Source: Bryobacteraceae bacterium (GTDB taxonomy: Bacteria > Acidobacteriota > Terriglobia > Bryobacterales > Bryobacteraceae). From it: 47,288 nt of DNA. A program made the translations under genes and the position numbers. Under the pieces are notes generated by a model. That model worked only from the letters and a program-made list of their open reading frames with translations. It was not told the DNA's origin and ran no database searches. This document shows positions 38,201-42,761 of this stretch, piece after piece. The DNA is taken from positions 1 through 47,288 of the forward strand of contig JANWVO010000029.1 in assembly GCA_025056865.1 (NCBI GenBank), in the 5' to 3' direction. Within the stretch, counting starts at the first letter, position 1; the number at the start of each line of letters is the position of its first letter.

Positions 38201-38827
38201 ATGCCGGACCGCACAAGAATTGCGCCCGCGCCGGTCGACATGCTGGTGCCGATGGTGGTGGAGCAGACCTCGCGGGGCGAGCGCGCCTACGACATCTACT
38301 CGCGCCTGCTCCGCGAAAACATCATCTTCCTCGGCACGCCCATCGACGACCAGGTGGCCAACCTCGTCATCGCGCAGATGCTGTTCCTCGCCGCCGAGGA
38401 CCCCGAAAAGGACATCCAGCTCTACATCAACTCCCCCGGCGGCTCCATCACCGCCGGCCTCGCCATCCTCGACACGATGAACCTTGTCGAGCCCGACATC
38501 GTCACCTACTGCGTCGGCCAGGCTGCCTCGATGGCCGCCGTGCTGCTGGCCTGCGGCACCAAGGGCAAGCGCTACGCGCTGCCGCACTCGCGCATTCTCA
38601 TCCACCAGCCCTCGATGAGCGGCCTGGCCGGACAGGCCACCGACATCGACATCTACGCCAAGGAGATCCTCCGGATGCGCGAGATCCTCAACAGGATCCT
38701 CGCCGACGCCACCGGCCAGCCGGTGGAGAAGATCGCCCGCGATGTCGACCGCGACTACATCATGGAAGCCGAGCAGGCGCTCGAATACGGCATGGTCGAC
38801 AAGATCATCGCGAGGCGCGAGAAGTAA
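38201..38827 (+). CDS. clpP: ATP-dependent Clp protease proteolytic subunit
   Basis: A 208-residue serine protease with catalytic triad S110 (GQAASMAA), H135 (LIHQPS) and D185 (DVDRD), the normal ClpP plan. GGAGG about 5 nt before the ATG supports the start. It forms the tetradecameric chamber that degrades proteins fed by ClpX or ClpA. No tig or clpX gene follows; the usual clpP-clpX pairing is broken by the convergent ParA islet, or clpP is a second copy. The end overlaps the ParA gene by 23 nt tail to tail. Confidence 0.95.
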
Positions 38828-39833
38828 AGAGCCAGCCCAGTCCGGTCTTCTCCAGGATCCGGCCAGCCAGGCGCTGGAATTCGCGCCGCGCCTCCTGCAC
38901 GAGTTGCGCGTGGGAGCCGATGGCCCCGTCCGCGGCCCGAAGGTGAAAAATCGGCTTCCGCGCCTCCTGCGCCATCGGGACCAGGCTGCGAAAATGCTTC
39001 AACATATAAAGGCACTCGGGATCCGAGTGTGGTTCCCCGGGAGGAGCCAGAGTGTCGTTCAGAATGGAACGATGGTATTCCTCCGGAATGCGCCGCATCC
39101 ATTTTTCGAAGGATTTCACCGGGCGGTCCAGACGCACGGAGTGCATCAGAATCACGTATCCGGCCGGCCGCACCTCGCCTTGAGGAAGGGGAAAGTCCAG
39201 CCTGGCCGGCTTCTGCTCCATCCTCCTGGCCCATTGCTTCCTCCACTCGGCCAGCGTCGGACCCAGGTTCCTTAACCCCTGAAGCGAGAACAGATCCGGA
39301 GCCAGCGGAATGACCACGGAATCGCTCGACACCAGACAGGCGCGGTTGATGGCCCCCAGGTTCGGTCCAAGATCCATCAGCACCAGCTCTGCCTGGCAAC
39401 GCTCGGCGGCGCGCTGCAATGCCCGGTAGATGGAAGAGGTGACGCGGAAGGCCCGCTCATCGCCATCCACGCAACGCGGCCAGGCTTCGGAAAGATGCGC
39501 TTCGAAAGACGAAAGAAGCAGGTCTCCGGGGACGATCCAGACTTTCGACCCGGACTCCTCTACTTCCTCGACGTGCACCTCCCCGACGTCGCTGGTTCCA
39601 CGCACCAGCGGCTCCAGGCAGCCCGAAATGCTCAGCCTCGCGCCCTCTTCCGGCCACAACTGCTCCAGCCGTTCTTCCTCCACGAAGGCCGAAGTAAGAT
39701 TGGCCTGCGGATCCAGATCGGCCGCCAACACCTTCAGCCCCAGATCGGCATACATCCAGGCCGTATGGTATACGAGCGTGGTTTTCCCGACGCCCCCCTT
39801 GTTGTTGAAAAAGGCGATGACGGGTATGCTCAA
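38805..39833 (-). CDS. ParA/Soj-type P-loop ATPase linked to the AlbA_2-HATPase gene
   Basis: A 342-residue ParA-superfamily ATPase. The deviant Walker A is [11 protein letters not shown] (10-20), the A' motif is [11 protein letters not shown] (about 38-48), and the Walker B region is [18 protein letters not shown]. The C-terminal half is longer than plain ParA and has no partner-binding feature I recognise. No parB follows. Its start overlaps the end of the AlbA_2 gene by 4 nt, so both are coupled. Visibly lower GC and looser codon use than the flanks suggest transfer. Chromosome partitioning is unlikely; a role in a two-gene, perhaps defensive or element-related module is an inference. Confidence 0.85.
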
Positions 39834-41026
39834 GCCCGCCTCCTCAATACCGCCAGCACATTGCGGTCGGTGACTTCAAACTCGATCCCGGGATTTCCAT
39901 TTTTCTCCATGGCTTTCCTGGCCAGCGCAATGCCCACGCCGAACTTCTGTACGTAACCCAGATTCCTGAGAGCTTCGGCGATGTGGGGGTTCCGGTAATC
40001 GGTTACCCCCGGCTGGCCGAAATTCTGCCGGTTCACCTGTCCAAACGGTCCGCCAGGATTGTGAATTTCGACCCGGTTTTCGAACCAGTAAATGCGGACC
40101 GGAGCATGGCTGCCCTCGTAATCCCGGTGCATGATTGCGTTTCTGGCGATCTGCTGGAGGGCAGGCAGCGGATAATCAGGGCGCCGGATCTCCAGCGGTC
40201 CTCCGCTCAGGTCCGTCCGCACCTGGATATTTGCCTCCAGCACTTCGTCCAGCCGCCGAAGGACATCCGGCAGCGTCCCTTCGAGCTCCTTCTGGTCCCG
40301 GATCGGCGCGGCCAGATCATCCCCGTCCAACCGGAGAAATTGCACGTAGGCTCCGGGGACCCACCTGCGGGGATCCTTGCCGCAAACCAGGAGCCCTGTG
40401 GGCGTGGCATGGGTTTGGGGGGGCGGGGAGAGGAACCGCAACGCGGCGAGCTGCTGCTCCACGCTTCGCTGATTCTGTTCAAGGAGCTCCGGACTCACGG
40501 CCGCCGGCAGGTACTCCCGCTGAAAAAAGAGCAGGTCCAGGTCCTCCAGCCCGGCGGAAGGCAGCGGACGGACGTCCCACGGCAGATCCCGGGCGCGGCG
40601 GCGCTCCGTCAGGATCCGTTCCTCCTGTGCGTCCGCGATGGCGCGGCGCGGACCGACCCGGATGCACACGCGTCCCTTGTAGCGGACCGGCGGAGCATCC
40701 GACGGCTCCACGATCACAATGGCCAGCTCGCATCCCTCCAGCACCCGCTTCTGGACTGTCAGGCGCGGAATCGGCACGATGTTCCCGCTCGAGCGGATGT
40801 CGGCCAGCTTCCTCAGCAGCTCATCCGTGACCACAAGCCCTGCACAGGAACCGTCATCCCGGAGACCCACAAAGATGACTCCGGGTTTTCCGTGGCCGGG
40901 CATGTCGTTGGCGAAGGCGCAGACCGCTTCTGCGATCTTCTCCGTCTCGGCCGCAGACGCCTTCCGCTCGACGCGGTCCGACTCGAGGTCGTTTTTCAGC
41001 GCGAGCAGCTCTTCCTCCGTCAGCAT
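39830..41026 (-). CDS. Schlafen AlbA_2 domain + HATPase_c_4 protein (divergent AAA-4/ATP-dependent regulator type)
   Basis: A 398-residue protein. Residues 10-130 show the AlbA_2 pattern: ESDRVERKAS, then AVCAFANDMPG and IFVGLRDDGSCAG, and VRYKGRVCIRVGPR. Residues about 285-395 match the HATPase_c_4 domain with ARNAIMHRDYEGS, FENRVEIHNPGG and RNPHIAEALRNLGYVQKFGVGI. Such proteins are known as transcriptional regulators or RNA/DNA-binding enzymes, and are common in defence islands and mobile regions. It starts 116 nt after fhs. A TAGCAT about 15 nt before the ATG could be a -10. Its coupling to a ParA-like ATPase is unusual. Confidence 0.85.
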   Translation of the reverse strand: MLTEEELLALKNDLESDRVERKASAAETEKIAEAVCAFANDMPGHGKPGVIFVGLRDDGSCAGLVVTDELLRKLADIRSSGNIVPIPRLTVQKRVLEGCELAIVIVEPSDAPPVRYKGRVCIRVGPRRAIADAQEERILTERRRARDLPWDVRPLPSAGLEDLDLLFFQREYLPAAVSPELLEQNQRSVEQQLAALRFLSPPPQTHATPTGLLVCGKDPRRWVPGAYVQFLRLDGDDLAAPIRDQKELEGTLPDVLRRLDEVLEANIQVRTDLSGGPLEIRRPDYPLPALQQIARNAIMHRDYEGSHAPVRIYWFENRVEIHNPGGPFGQVNRQNFGQPGVTDYRNPHIAEALRNLGYVQKFGVGIALARKAMEKNGNPGIEFEVTDRNVLAVLRRRA

Positions 41027-41141
41027 GGCTGTGCAACCCTCATGCTAGCACCAGCAGGGCCGTCCGCCCGCAGCACAAGGCATCCGCAAACGCGCCATTG
41101 GCGGGCGCGGCGCGGCAGCGACGCCCCGGCGCTGCCCGCTT

Positions 41142-42761
41142 CTACCGCAGCCCGACGATGTTGCCTTCCGCGTCGACGTCCATCCGCACCGCCTGCGGCT
41201 CCTTCCCCAGGCCGGGCATGCGCATCATGTTGCCGGCGATCACCACCACGAAGCCCGCCCCGGCGGCGAGGTCGGCGTCCGTCACCGTCAGCGTCCAGCC
41301 CGAAGGCGCCCCGAGAATTTTCGGATTATCGGTGAAAGACGACTGCGTTTTCGCCATGCACACCGGCAAATGGCCGAAGCCGGCCGCCATATAACGGTCC
41401 AGTTTTTTCTTGGCTTTGCTCTCGATATAGACAGCCGCGGCGCCGTAAATCTCCCGCGCGACGGTCTCGATTTTCGTCCGCAGGCTCACCTCGGGCTTGT
41501 ACAGCGGCTCCGGCGCGGCCGTCTTGGTCTCCAGCGTGTGCAGCACCGCTTCGGCCAGCTCCATCGCGCCTTCGCCTCCGCGCGCATAGGCCTCCACCAC
41601 CGCCGCCGGCACGTCGCGTTCGCTGGCGAACAGGCGGATTTCCCGCAATAAATCGTCCGTATCGTCCGGGAATCTGTTGATGGCGATGACCACCGGCACG
41701 TGGAATTTCTGCAAATTGTCGAGGTGCCGTTCGAGGTTGGCCAGCCCGCGGCGCAGCGCGTCGGCGGTGAAGGGGCCCTTCTCGCTGCCGTTGCCCTGCG
41801 CGCACAGCGCCCGCGCGCTCGCGATCAGCACCGCCGCGTCCGGCCGCAGCCCGCTGGAAGGCATCACAATGTTGAAGTATTTCTCCGCTCCCAGGTCCGC
41901 CCCGAAGCCGGTTTCGTTCACCACATAGTCGGCCAGCCCGAGCGCCATCCGCTGCGAGATCACGCTCGAAGTGCCGTGGGCGATGTTGGCGAACGGGCCC
42001 GCGTGCACCAGCGCGGGCGCGCCCTCGGTGGTCTGCACGAGGTTGGGCATGATGGCCTCGTTCAGCAGCACCATCATCGCGCCGGTGGCGCCCAGGTCCG
42101 CCGCGCGCACCGGCTCGCCCTTCAGGTTCAGCCCGATCACGATGCGGCCCAGCCGGGCGCGCAGGTCCTCGCGGTCGCGCGCCAGCGCCAGGATGGCCAT
42201 CACCTCGCTGGCCGCCGTGATCACAAAGCCGGTCTCCCGCGGCACCCCGTTGGCCTTGCCGCCCAGGCCCACGATCACGTGCCGCAGCGCGCGGTCGTTC
42301 ATGTCCAGCGCCCGCGGCCAGGTGATCTCGTCCACATCGATGCCCAGCGCGTTGCCATGATGCAGGTGGGCGTCGATCATCGCCGCCAGCAGGTTGTGCG
42401 CGCTCGTCACCGCGTGGAAGTCGCCGTTGAAGTGCAGGTTGATCATCTCGCTCGGGATCACCTGCGAAAGGCCCCCGCCGGTGGCGCCGCCCTTGATGCC
42501 GAACACCGGCCCGAGCGACGGCTCGCGCAGCGTCACCGCCGCGAGCTTCCCCATTCTCGTCAGCGCCTGCGTCAGCCCGATCGACGTGACCGTCTTGCCC
42601 TCGCCGTGGCTGGTGGGCGTGATGGCGGTCACCAGAATCAGCTTGCCCCGCCGCGGGCGGTCGAGCAGCTCCAGCCGCAGCTTGGCCGTGTATTTCCCGT
42701 AATATTCCATGGCATCTTCGGGGATGCCCAGCTTGTCTGCGACAGCGCGGATCAGCAACAT
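41142..42761 (-). CDS. fhs: Formate-tetrahydrofolate ligase
   Basis: A 539-residue enzyme. The start is the ATG at 42761, with GGAGG 7 nt before it; the open frame extends seven codons. The ATP site TPTSHGEGKTVTSIGL is at about 46-61, and LREPSLGPVFGIKGGATGGG is a family block. It makes 10-formyl-THF from formate, THF and ATP for one-carbon metabolism, including purine synthesis. Upstream lies an OFA-family transporter on the same strand, separated by 210 nt. It is near the family's usual length (about 555). Confidence 0.96.
   Translation of the reverse strand: MLLIRAVADKLGIPEDAMEYYGKYTAKLRLELLDRPRRGKLILVTAITPTSHGEGKTVTSIGLTQALTRMGKLAAVTLREPSLGPVFGIKGGATGGGLSQVIPSEMINLHFNGDFHAVTSAHNLLAAMIDAHLHHGNALGIDVDEITWPRALDMNDRALRHVIVGLGGKANGVPRETGFVITAASEVMAILALARDREDLRARLGRIVIGLNLKGEPVRAADLGATGAMMVLLNEAIMPNLVQTTEGAPALVHAGPFANIAHGTSSVISQRMALGLADYVVNETGFGADLGAEKYFNIVMPSSGLRPDAAVLIASARALCAQGNGSEKGPFTADALRRGLANLERHLDNLQKFHVPVVIAINRFPDDTDDLLREIRLFASERDVPAAVVEAYARGGEGAMELAEAVLHTLETKTAAPEPLYKPEVSLRTKIETVAREIYGAAAVYIESKAKKKLDRYMAAGFGHLPVCMAKTQSSFTDNPKILGAPSGWTLTVTDADLAAGAGFVVVIAGNMMRMPGLGKEPQAVRMDVDAEGNIVGLR

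Follow-up and report, generated by a model that had tools for sequence, protein, structure and literature searches.

A ParA-Type ATPase Gene Coupled to a Schlafen-Like GHKL Gene: A Widespread, Horizontally Transferred Pair and Probable Immune Module

Introduction

Why would a ParA-type ATPase gene stand without a ParB gene and share its first nucleotides with the end of a gene for a Schlafen-like protein? The question is raised by two genes in a 47,288-nucleotide stretch of DNA (the window, meaning that whole length) from the Bryobacteraceae bacterium assembly GCA_025056865.1. A preliminary description of the window had proposed that the pair, here called A (AlbA_2/HATPase_c_4) and B (ParA/Soj-type), is a self-contained transferred module, possibly for defence, and had known of no described system made of it. 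The second part of that statement holds for the pair and not for one of its halves. In the accessible text of PMC12839542, a Schlafen-family RNase fused to a minimal histidine kinase and a wHTH serves BREX and BREX-related systems as an accessory effector, and the whole word ParA is absent from the main text as accessed. A limited search, covering few subscription papers or bioRxiv and with a ParA term that also matched other words, returned no paper on a ParA-Schlafen pair among the matches listed, nor one on a ParA-coupled version lacking the wHTH or on a ParA clade with swapped effectors. Judging from genomic context and conserved residues, we conclude that the pair is probably an undescribed immune module.

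The gene pair in the window

The features on which the argument draws are as follows.

39830..41026, minus strand: gene A, AlbA_2 plus GHKL/HATPase_c_4 (Pfam), 398 aa, ATG start
38805..39833, minus strand: gene B, ParA/Soj-type ATPase, AAA_31 (Pfam), 342 aa, TTG start
39830..39833, minus strand: 4-nt overlap of A stop and B start, TTGA
39839-39845: GAGGAGG, ribosome-binding-like run just 5′ of the overlap and B start
38805..38827: 23-nt tail-to-tail overlap of the B and clpP 3′ ends
40961..40984, minus strand: ExxxxExK of A (E15, E20, K22), the motif that is catalytic in Schlafen RNases (alignment and the accessible text of PMC12215978)
40853..40858, minus strand: tandem aspartates D57-D58 of A, 37-38 residues past E20
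40139..40153, minus strand: GHKL N-box of A, Q292 to N296 (alignment; Gln where 3lmm has Glu)
39780..39800, minus strand: deviant Walker A of B, KGGVGKT

Both reading frames lie at 38805-41026, as first described, on the minus strand, and Pfam agrees with the proposed domain identities and with a seat between clpP and fhs, the flanking genes encoding a Clp protease and a formate-tetrahydrofolate ligase. Gene A is upstream of B and begins 115 nt past the stop codon of fhs, with which it shares its strand. The overlap has the four nucleotides originally ascribed to it; its sequence, given then as ATGA, is TTGA because B starts with TTG. The lower GC content suspected by eye was recovered by calculation, at 63.2% for the pair against 68.5% for the window, a value equally low in 1.8% of sliding 2.2-kb windows, and third-position GC is 0.77 in A and 0.75 in B against 0.86-0.94 in five neighbour genes. 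Pfam found no BREX or BREX-related gene among the five window neighbours, and no non-coding RNA reached Rfam gathering scores in 38700-41300.

Comparison with four congeners places the pair at a synteny breakpoint. Conservation reaches as far as clpP in each of them (one alignment, to L103, ran 47 nt past clpP), and the stretch beyond it (window 38828 onward, L103-L106) differs in every congener. The fhs gene is whole in three of the four, with no similarity beside it, its neighbour having been read in one. A clean empty site was not obtained among these four congeners.

Protein A: a Schlafen-like domain joined to a GHKL domain

Pfam assigns residues 15-127 of A to SLFN_AlbA_2 (3.9e-14) and residues 308-392 to HATPase_c_4 (2.5e-16); as the latter ends at residue 392 of 398, there is no room for a C-terminal wHTH. 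The AlphaFold2 model (mean pLDDT 91.4, pTM 0.71) retrieved 3lmm as its top Foldseek match, followed mainly by GHKL kinases, with human SLFN11 (7zep_A) a weak match at rank 30 (E 1.6e-3). In the alignment of close relatives (A3), E15, E20, and K22 are invariant in 78/78 rows, and residue 57 is Asp in 66 of the 78. The spacing of E15, E20, K22, D57, and D58 matches that of E206, E211, K213, D248, and D249 in SLFN14, where, in the accessible text of PMC12215978, mutation of the motif ends cleavage and the aspartates are of lesser weight. Protein A thus has the ExxxxExK motif and its distance to the aspartates in common with vertebrate SLFN11 and SLFN14, as far as the accessible source describes them, and differs from both in being a single AlbA_2 plus GHKL domain within 398 aa and a putative RNase. 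Its order of AlbA_2/Schlafen and GHKL parts is that of the Schlafen-histidine kinase-wHTH effector in the accessible text of PMC12839542, and, at 12 of 111 loci of the pair, A has in common with it a seat beside BREX genes or Type-1 BREX-related ones (Hma-type, DUF1156/DUF499); A differs from that effector in lacking the wHTH and in being coupled to a ParA gene.

The second domain of A departs from the GHKL pattern at one position. In GHKL enzymes the catalytic Glu lies four residues ahead of the N-box Asn. The N-box Asn (N296) and the glycine boxes (G325, G326, G363, G365) are kept in 78/78 rows, and all 78 rows of the window's clade have Gln (Q292) in place of this Glu, whereas 3lmm has Glu. 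The Gln would probably leave a GHKL domain that binds ATP and hydrolyzes it poorly. A first alignment drawn from the family (A1) has Glu at the N-box position in 13/24 rows, Thr for K22 in 12/24 A proteins, and E15 absent in two others. The Thr-22 family clade keeps the GHKL Glu, and one protein (L099) has both Lys and Glu. Members of this clade at L080-L091, with Thr for K22 and Glu at the N-box, are the reverse of the window's clade. The Thr-22 clade is also paired with B, and because SLFN14 K213A and K213R each abolish cleavage in the accessible text of PMC12215978, it may not be an RNase.

Protein B: a ParA-type ATPase without ParB

Protein B matches Pfam AAA_31 (7.8e-28) and has the marks of the ParA ATPase superfamily, a deviant Walker A of the form KGGxGKT together with the Walker A′ Asp residues. 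Across 72 aligned rows K12, D39, and D41 are each kept in 72/72 and K17 in 71/72. The model (mean pLDDT 94.1, pTM 0.92) has a Soj/ParA-like fold, and the best solved relative is PDB 3pg5, matched at profile positions 3-324 (E 1.1e-44) and so over almost the whole length of B. With ParA/Soj/MinD-type ATPases B shares AAA_31, KGGVGKT, and the fold; it differs from them in having A rather than ParB as its adjoining gene, in an extra C-terminal region like that of 3pg5, and in its placement in a clade to which eight other ParAs do not belong (see below). By sequence and fold, the solved structures closest to B and A are 3pg5 (DIP2308) and 3lmm (DIP2311), respectively, from two uncharacterized Corynebacterium diphtheriae proteins of which the latter is longer than A (583 aa vs 398 aa). 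Locus tags three apart suggest that these two proteins are partners as well.

Neither protein is matched as a whole by the models of known systems that were searched. NCBIfam gave nothing over its cut-offs for A or B. The PADLOC hits were partial for both proteins, the best of the pAgo/Aga models matching residues 136-389 of A (8.8e-16) and PDC-M28B matching residues 3-54 of B (8.2e-8).

Spread, coupling, and transfer of the pair

A scan of GTDB genomes with the A alignment returned at least 590 stretches and at least 576 relatives of A, of which the best 80 were kept. It had been recognized at the outset that rare adjacency would count against a functional pair; among these best 80 of at least 576, B lies directly downstream of A in 77, and 71 of those 77 have a possible start giving the 4-nt overlap. 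Most relatives of B start with ATG. At the three remaining loci (L133, L144, L153) no B is nearby, ExxxxExK is intact in each A, and the best B matches elsewhere in their genomes (completeness not given) were none, 3.6e-7, and 4.0e-5, the level of a generic ParA. Two further genomes, G186 and G111, hold A without B, and K22 is Thr there.

Within the family the picture is similar. At E 0.001, A matches occurred in 89 and B matches in 188 of 200 family genomes, mostly distant or generic; around the close hits, B adjoins A at 28/31 loci (the exceptions being L089, L090, and L091), and the overlap is 4 nt at all 24 loci with both ends readable, the window included. In the genome of L090 a different contig ends in a piece of B. 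Stops, frameshifts, or deletions mark decay at 7 or more of the 31 loci, at least (L074, L092, L094-L098). A search of the phylum matched 9/297 genomes, among them the window's own, and yielded five more A-B pairs or fragments. An additional AlbA_2-like gene was seen near the pair at two loci, upstream of A in L184 (by eye) and at L202:40-891.

The pair is a widespread, horizontally transferred module, as the preliminary description had supposed in preference to a fixed vertical feature. In the genus A is present in 1/5 genomes, the ParA matches of the other four being merely of the generic kind (E about 1e-5), and homologues at 50-65% identity are found in many phyla. A tree of 71 pairs spans 13 phylum-level groups, with three rows, the window among them, unplaced and three rows from methanogens. 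Phylum labels change 31 times on it, against a minimum of 12 and a shuffled mean of 46.7, a pattern consistent with repeated transfer and, in places such as the cyanobacteria, with vertical descent. Draft bins and paralogy keep this from being proof. Nine cyanobacterial loci (L111, L112, L114, L118, L121, L122, L124, L125, L126) have a UvrA-like gene (by eye) upstream on the same strand, and with this common neighbour the pair looks resident and vertically kept there. Co-inheritance of A and B is strong but not strict: distances in the two trees are correlated at r 0.65, where 2000 permutations reached 0.19 at most, and the trees have 19/68 splits in common. Among splits with support of 95 or more, 12/19 of the A tree are found in the B tree and 11/22 of the B tree in the A tree, and with seven of the 19 well-supported A splits absent from the B tree, partners may sometimes be swapped.

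An origin of the pair on plasmids or phages was considered and set aside, as nothing close to A came up among phages or in the plasmid matches listed, and nothing close to B in the plasmid matches listed. In 72,556 plasmid records, A matches reached at most 31% identity among those listed (30 of 86) and B matches 25.7-34.7% among those listed (20 of 341); short B pieces at 60-80% identity occur in 23 further records. At plasmid hits H5, H10-H15, and H23-H29, distant A relatives stand against a gene annotated as a TrlF family AAA-like ATPase. Of the IMG/VR pattern matches, 7/43 were relatives of A and 2/48 relatives of B, and the pair was present on two contigs. On one, a 37-kb viral contig, it lies at the end (L209:4854-7153), directly past a D12-class adenine methyltransferase gene in a phage-cargo-like position. 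The other (L217) has the pair inside a BREX operon, in the order PglX, A, B, PglZ, BrxL, with 4 nt between B and pglZ.

Defence genes beside the pair

Whether the pair keeps company with defence genes, a question posed with its first description, was assessed in 115 sequences, namely 112 A/B rows and three with B-like genes only; L074 and L147 are one contig present twice, so the rows hold 111 distinct loci. A bias toward defence genes is present. BREX, Hma, DISARM-like, or related genes stand at 14/111 loci, as found with BLAST seeds drawn from recognized neighbours at these same loci, those of L161 and L171 finding only themselves. The other 97 have no BREX/Hma/DISARM-type seed match within the retrieved stretch, many stretches being short, and as only part of the neighbours was scanned, defence links may be undercounted. 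Several A-B loci among the matches listed stand beside housekeeping genes (by eye).

BREX and Hma-type genes together account for 12/111 loci. Hma-type genes occur at nine (L109, L117, L123, L144, L146, L164, L170, L175, L184), as the Hma helicase alone in L123 and L164 and in L144 as HmaB alone, 8 kb off and found by BLAST seed only; the pair can lie inside an Hma operon, as in L175 with the order HmaA-A-B-HmaB-HmaC. Of the three BREX loci (L077, L116, L133), L077 reads BrxC, PglX, a 397-aa gene, A, B, PglZ, BrxL, and the 4-nt overlap of B with pglZ makes the pair part of the BREX operon there. A DrmA-like gene is present at L161, and an HKD-Snf2 gene with a type IIG gene at L171. PADLOC matched 24/26 scanned neighbour proteins, the 331-aa protein of L116 and the 397-aa protein of L077 having no hit. 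HmaB was found at 6/80 loci (1.06 Mb; best 80 of at least 576 relatives) against about 0.05 expected, an expectation that is rough because methods and taxa differ and genomes were assumed to average 6.3 Mb; it derives from DUF1156 over cut-off at 58 places in 42/200 family genomes. For PglZ the background was 22/200 genomes over cut-off and was left unused, since the search missed the genome of L077.

Other partners of B-type ParAs

Further evidence on B comes from its relatives that stand beside something other than A. Seventeen such B-type ParA loci were opened, from 11 of the 341 plasmid records (chosen non-randomly from the rows listed) and six genome loci, three from the family search (L100-L102) and three from the phylum search (L200, L201, L207). 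A SIR2 gene is directly downstream of the ParA at 7/17 (L190, L191, L193, L194, L197, L198, L207), a RelA/SpoT-domain gene is downstream at 4/17 (L100, L102, L200, L201), and neither was found at 6/17 (L101, with a shortened ParA, and L189, L192, L195, L196, L199). Pfam identified SIR2_2 in L190, L191, and L194 and RelA_SpoT in L100 and L102, the remaining loci having been assigned by tblastn. The four RelA/SpoT loci are three-gene units of a small gene (about 186-213 aa), the B-type ParA, and the RelA/SpoT-domain gene. ParA and partner overlap by 4 nt in L190, L191, L194, L102, and L200 and by 8 nt in L193. Among PADLOC models, ThsA is the nearest to the SIR2 proteins of L190, L191, and L194, at 4e-16 or better; the RelA/SpoT gene of L102 has no counterpart there. 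Effectors of the kind known from Thoeris (ThsA/SIR2) and from small alarmone synthetases thus directly follow B-type ParAs elsewhere; the window's candidate effector differs from them in being Schlafen-like and in standing before the ParA gene, not after it.

In a tree of 37 ParAs, those coupled to AlbA_2, SIR2, and RelA/SpoT genes form, together with the partnerless L189, a clade of 29 against eight others (support 100/99), with a program warning of long branches where the clade joins and with lower support (69/47) for the SIR2 group. The AlbA_2-coupled B proteins in it are a chosen 17. The tree leaves out L192, L195, L196, and L199, four partnerless loci, as well as L206, L208, L218, and L219, all eight of which gave no fitting ORF, and is also without L101, L202-L205, L209, L216, and L217. 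We regard the combination of a B-type ParA with SIR2 as likely to be a sister module.

What the pair may do

The reading that we hold to be rather probable, well short of secure, is a horizontally transferred two-gene infection-response module, probably acting by abortive infection, in which a ParA-type switch (B) controls a toxic RNase (A). Protein A would be a Schlafen-type metal-dependent RNase gated by its nucleotide-binding GHKL domain, and B, probably dimerizing on ATP, would serve as sensor or switch. Phage infection, met by the pair alone or beside BREX or Hma, would change the state of B and free A, which would then cut tRNA or rRNA and stop translation. An infection-triggered effector is indicated by the varied toxic enzymes found beside one ATPase clade, by the overlap coupling, and by the seats in defence operons.

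A gene duo that overlaps, has one toxin-like member, and decays at 7 or more of 31 family loci could also be a toxin-antitoxin or addiction module, with A a toxic RNase, B its direct inhibitor, and defence secondary or absent. We think this unlikely, if deserving of attention, given that B is almost the size of A and keeps its ATPase motifs, and given the A genes with intact motifs that stand without B at L133, L144, and L153 in genomes with no close B. Two of these three are BREX or Hma loci, and together they mildly favour B as an activator over B as an antitoxin; in G186 and G111 A stands without B as well, but with Thr at K22.

The Soj/ParA fold of B, with its deviant Walker A and Walker A′ residues kept, and the distant relatives of A whose annotations read RNA-binding, ATP-binding, or helix-turn-helix protein suggest two further roles, both of which we judge improbable. 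As a transcriptional or stress-regulation pair, which is what annotations of AlbA_2-HATPase proteins would imply, A could sense nucleotide level through its GHKL domain, yet A is too short to hold the C-terminal part that 3lmm-type relatives carry, and the pair has a patchy distribution, is disrupted in several genomes, and at times lies within restriction operons. Slightly harder still to credit is a DNA-partition or localization pair, in which B would position a nucleoprotein complex and A would replace ParB as adaptor: A carries a nuclease motif, no close pair was found on plasmids among the matches listed from the 72,556 records, and B falls in a clade apart from the eight ParAs, its fellow members preceding SIR2 and RelA/SpoT-domain genes.

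Beyond the two-gene infection-response module itself, B may stand for a new class of defence switch, a ParA clade whose genes overlap or closely abut those of toxic enzymes that can replace one another (Schlafen-like RNase, SIR2, RelA/SpoT-type synthetase), the ParA acting as a general infection sensor that triggers the adjoining effector, alone or as a fail-safe of BREX or Hma; for this wider proposal we see the chances as evenly divided. If the infection-response reading is true, a ParA-type ATPase would join the known infection switches by way of a small pair present in many bacterial phyla and some archaea, and a group of ParAs without ParB would be explained. One ATPase clade should then control unrelated effectors, and the antiviral Schlafen RNases of animals would be linked to a compact two-gene module of prokaryotes.
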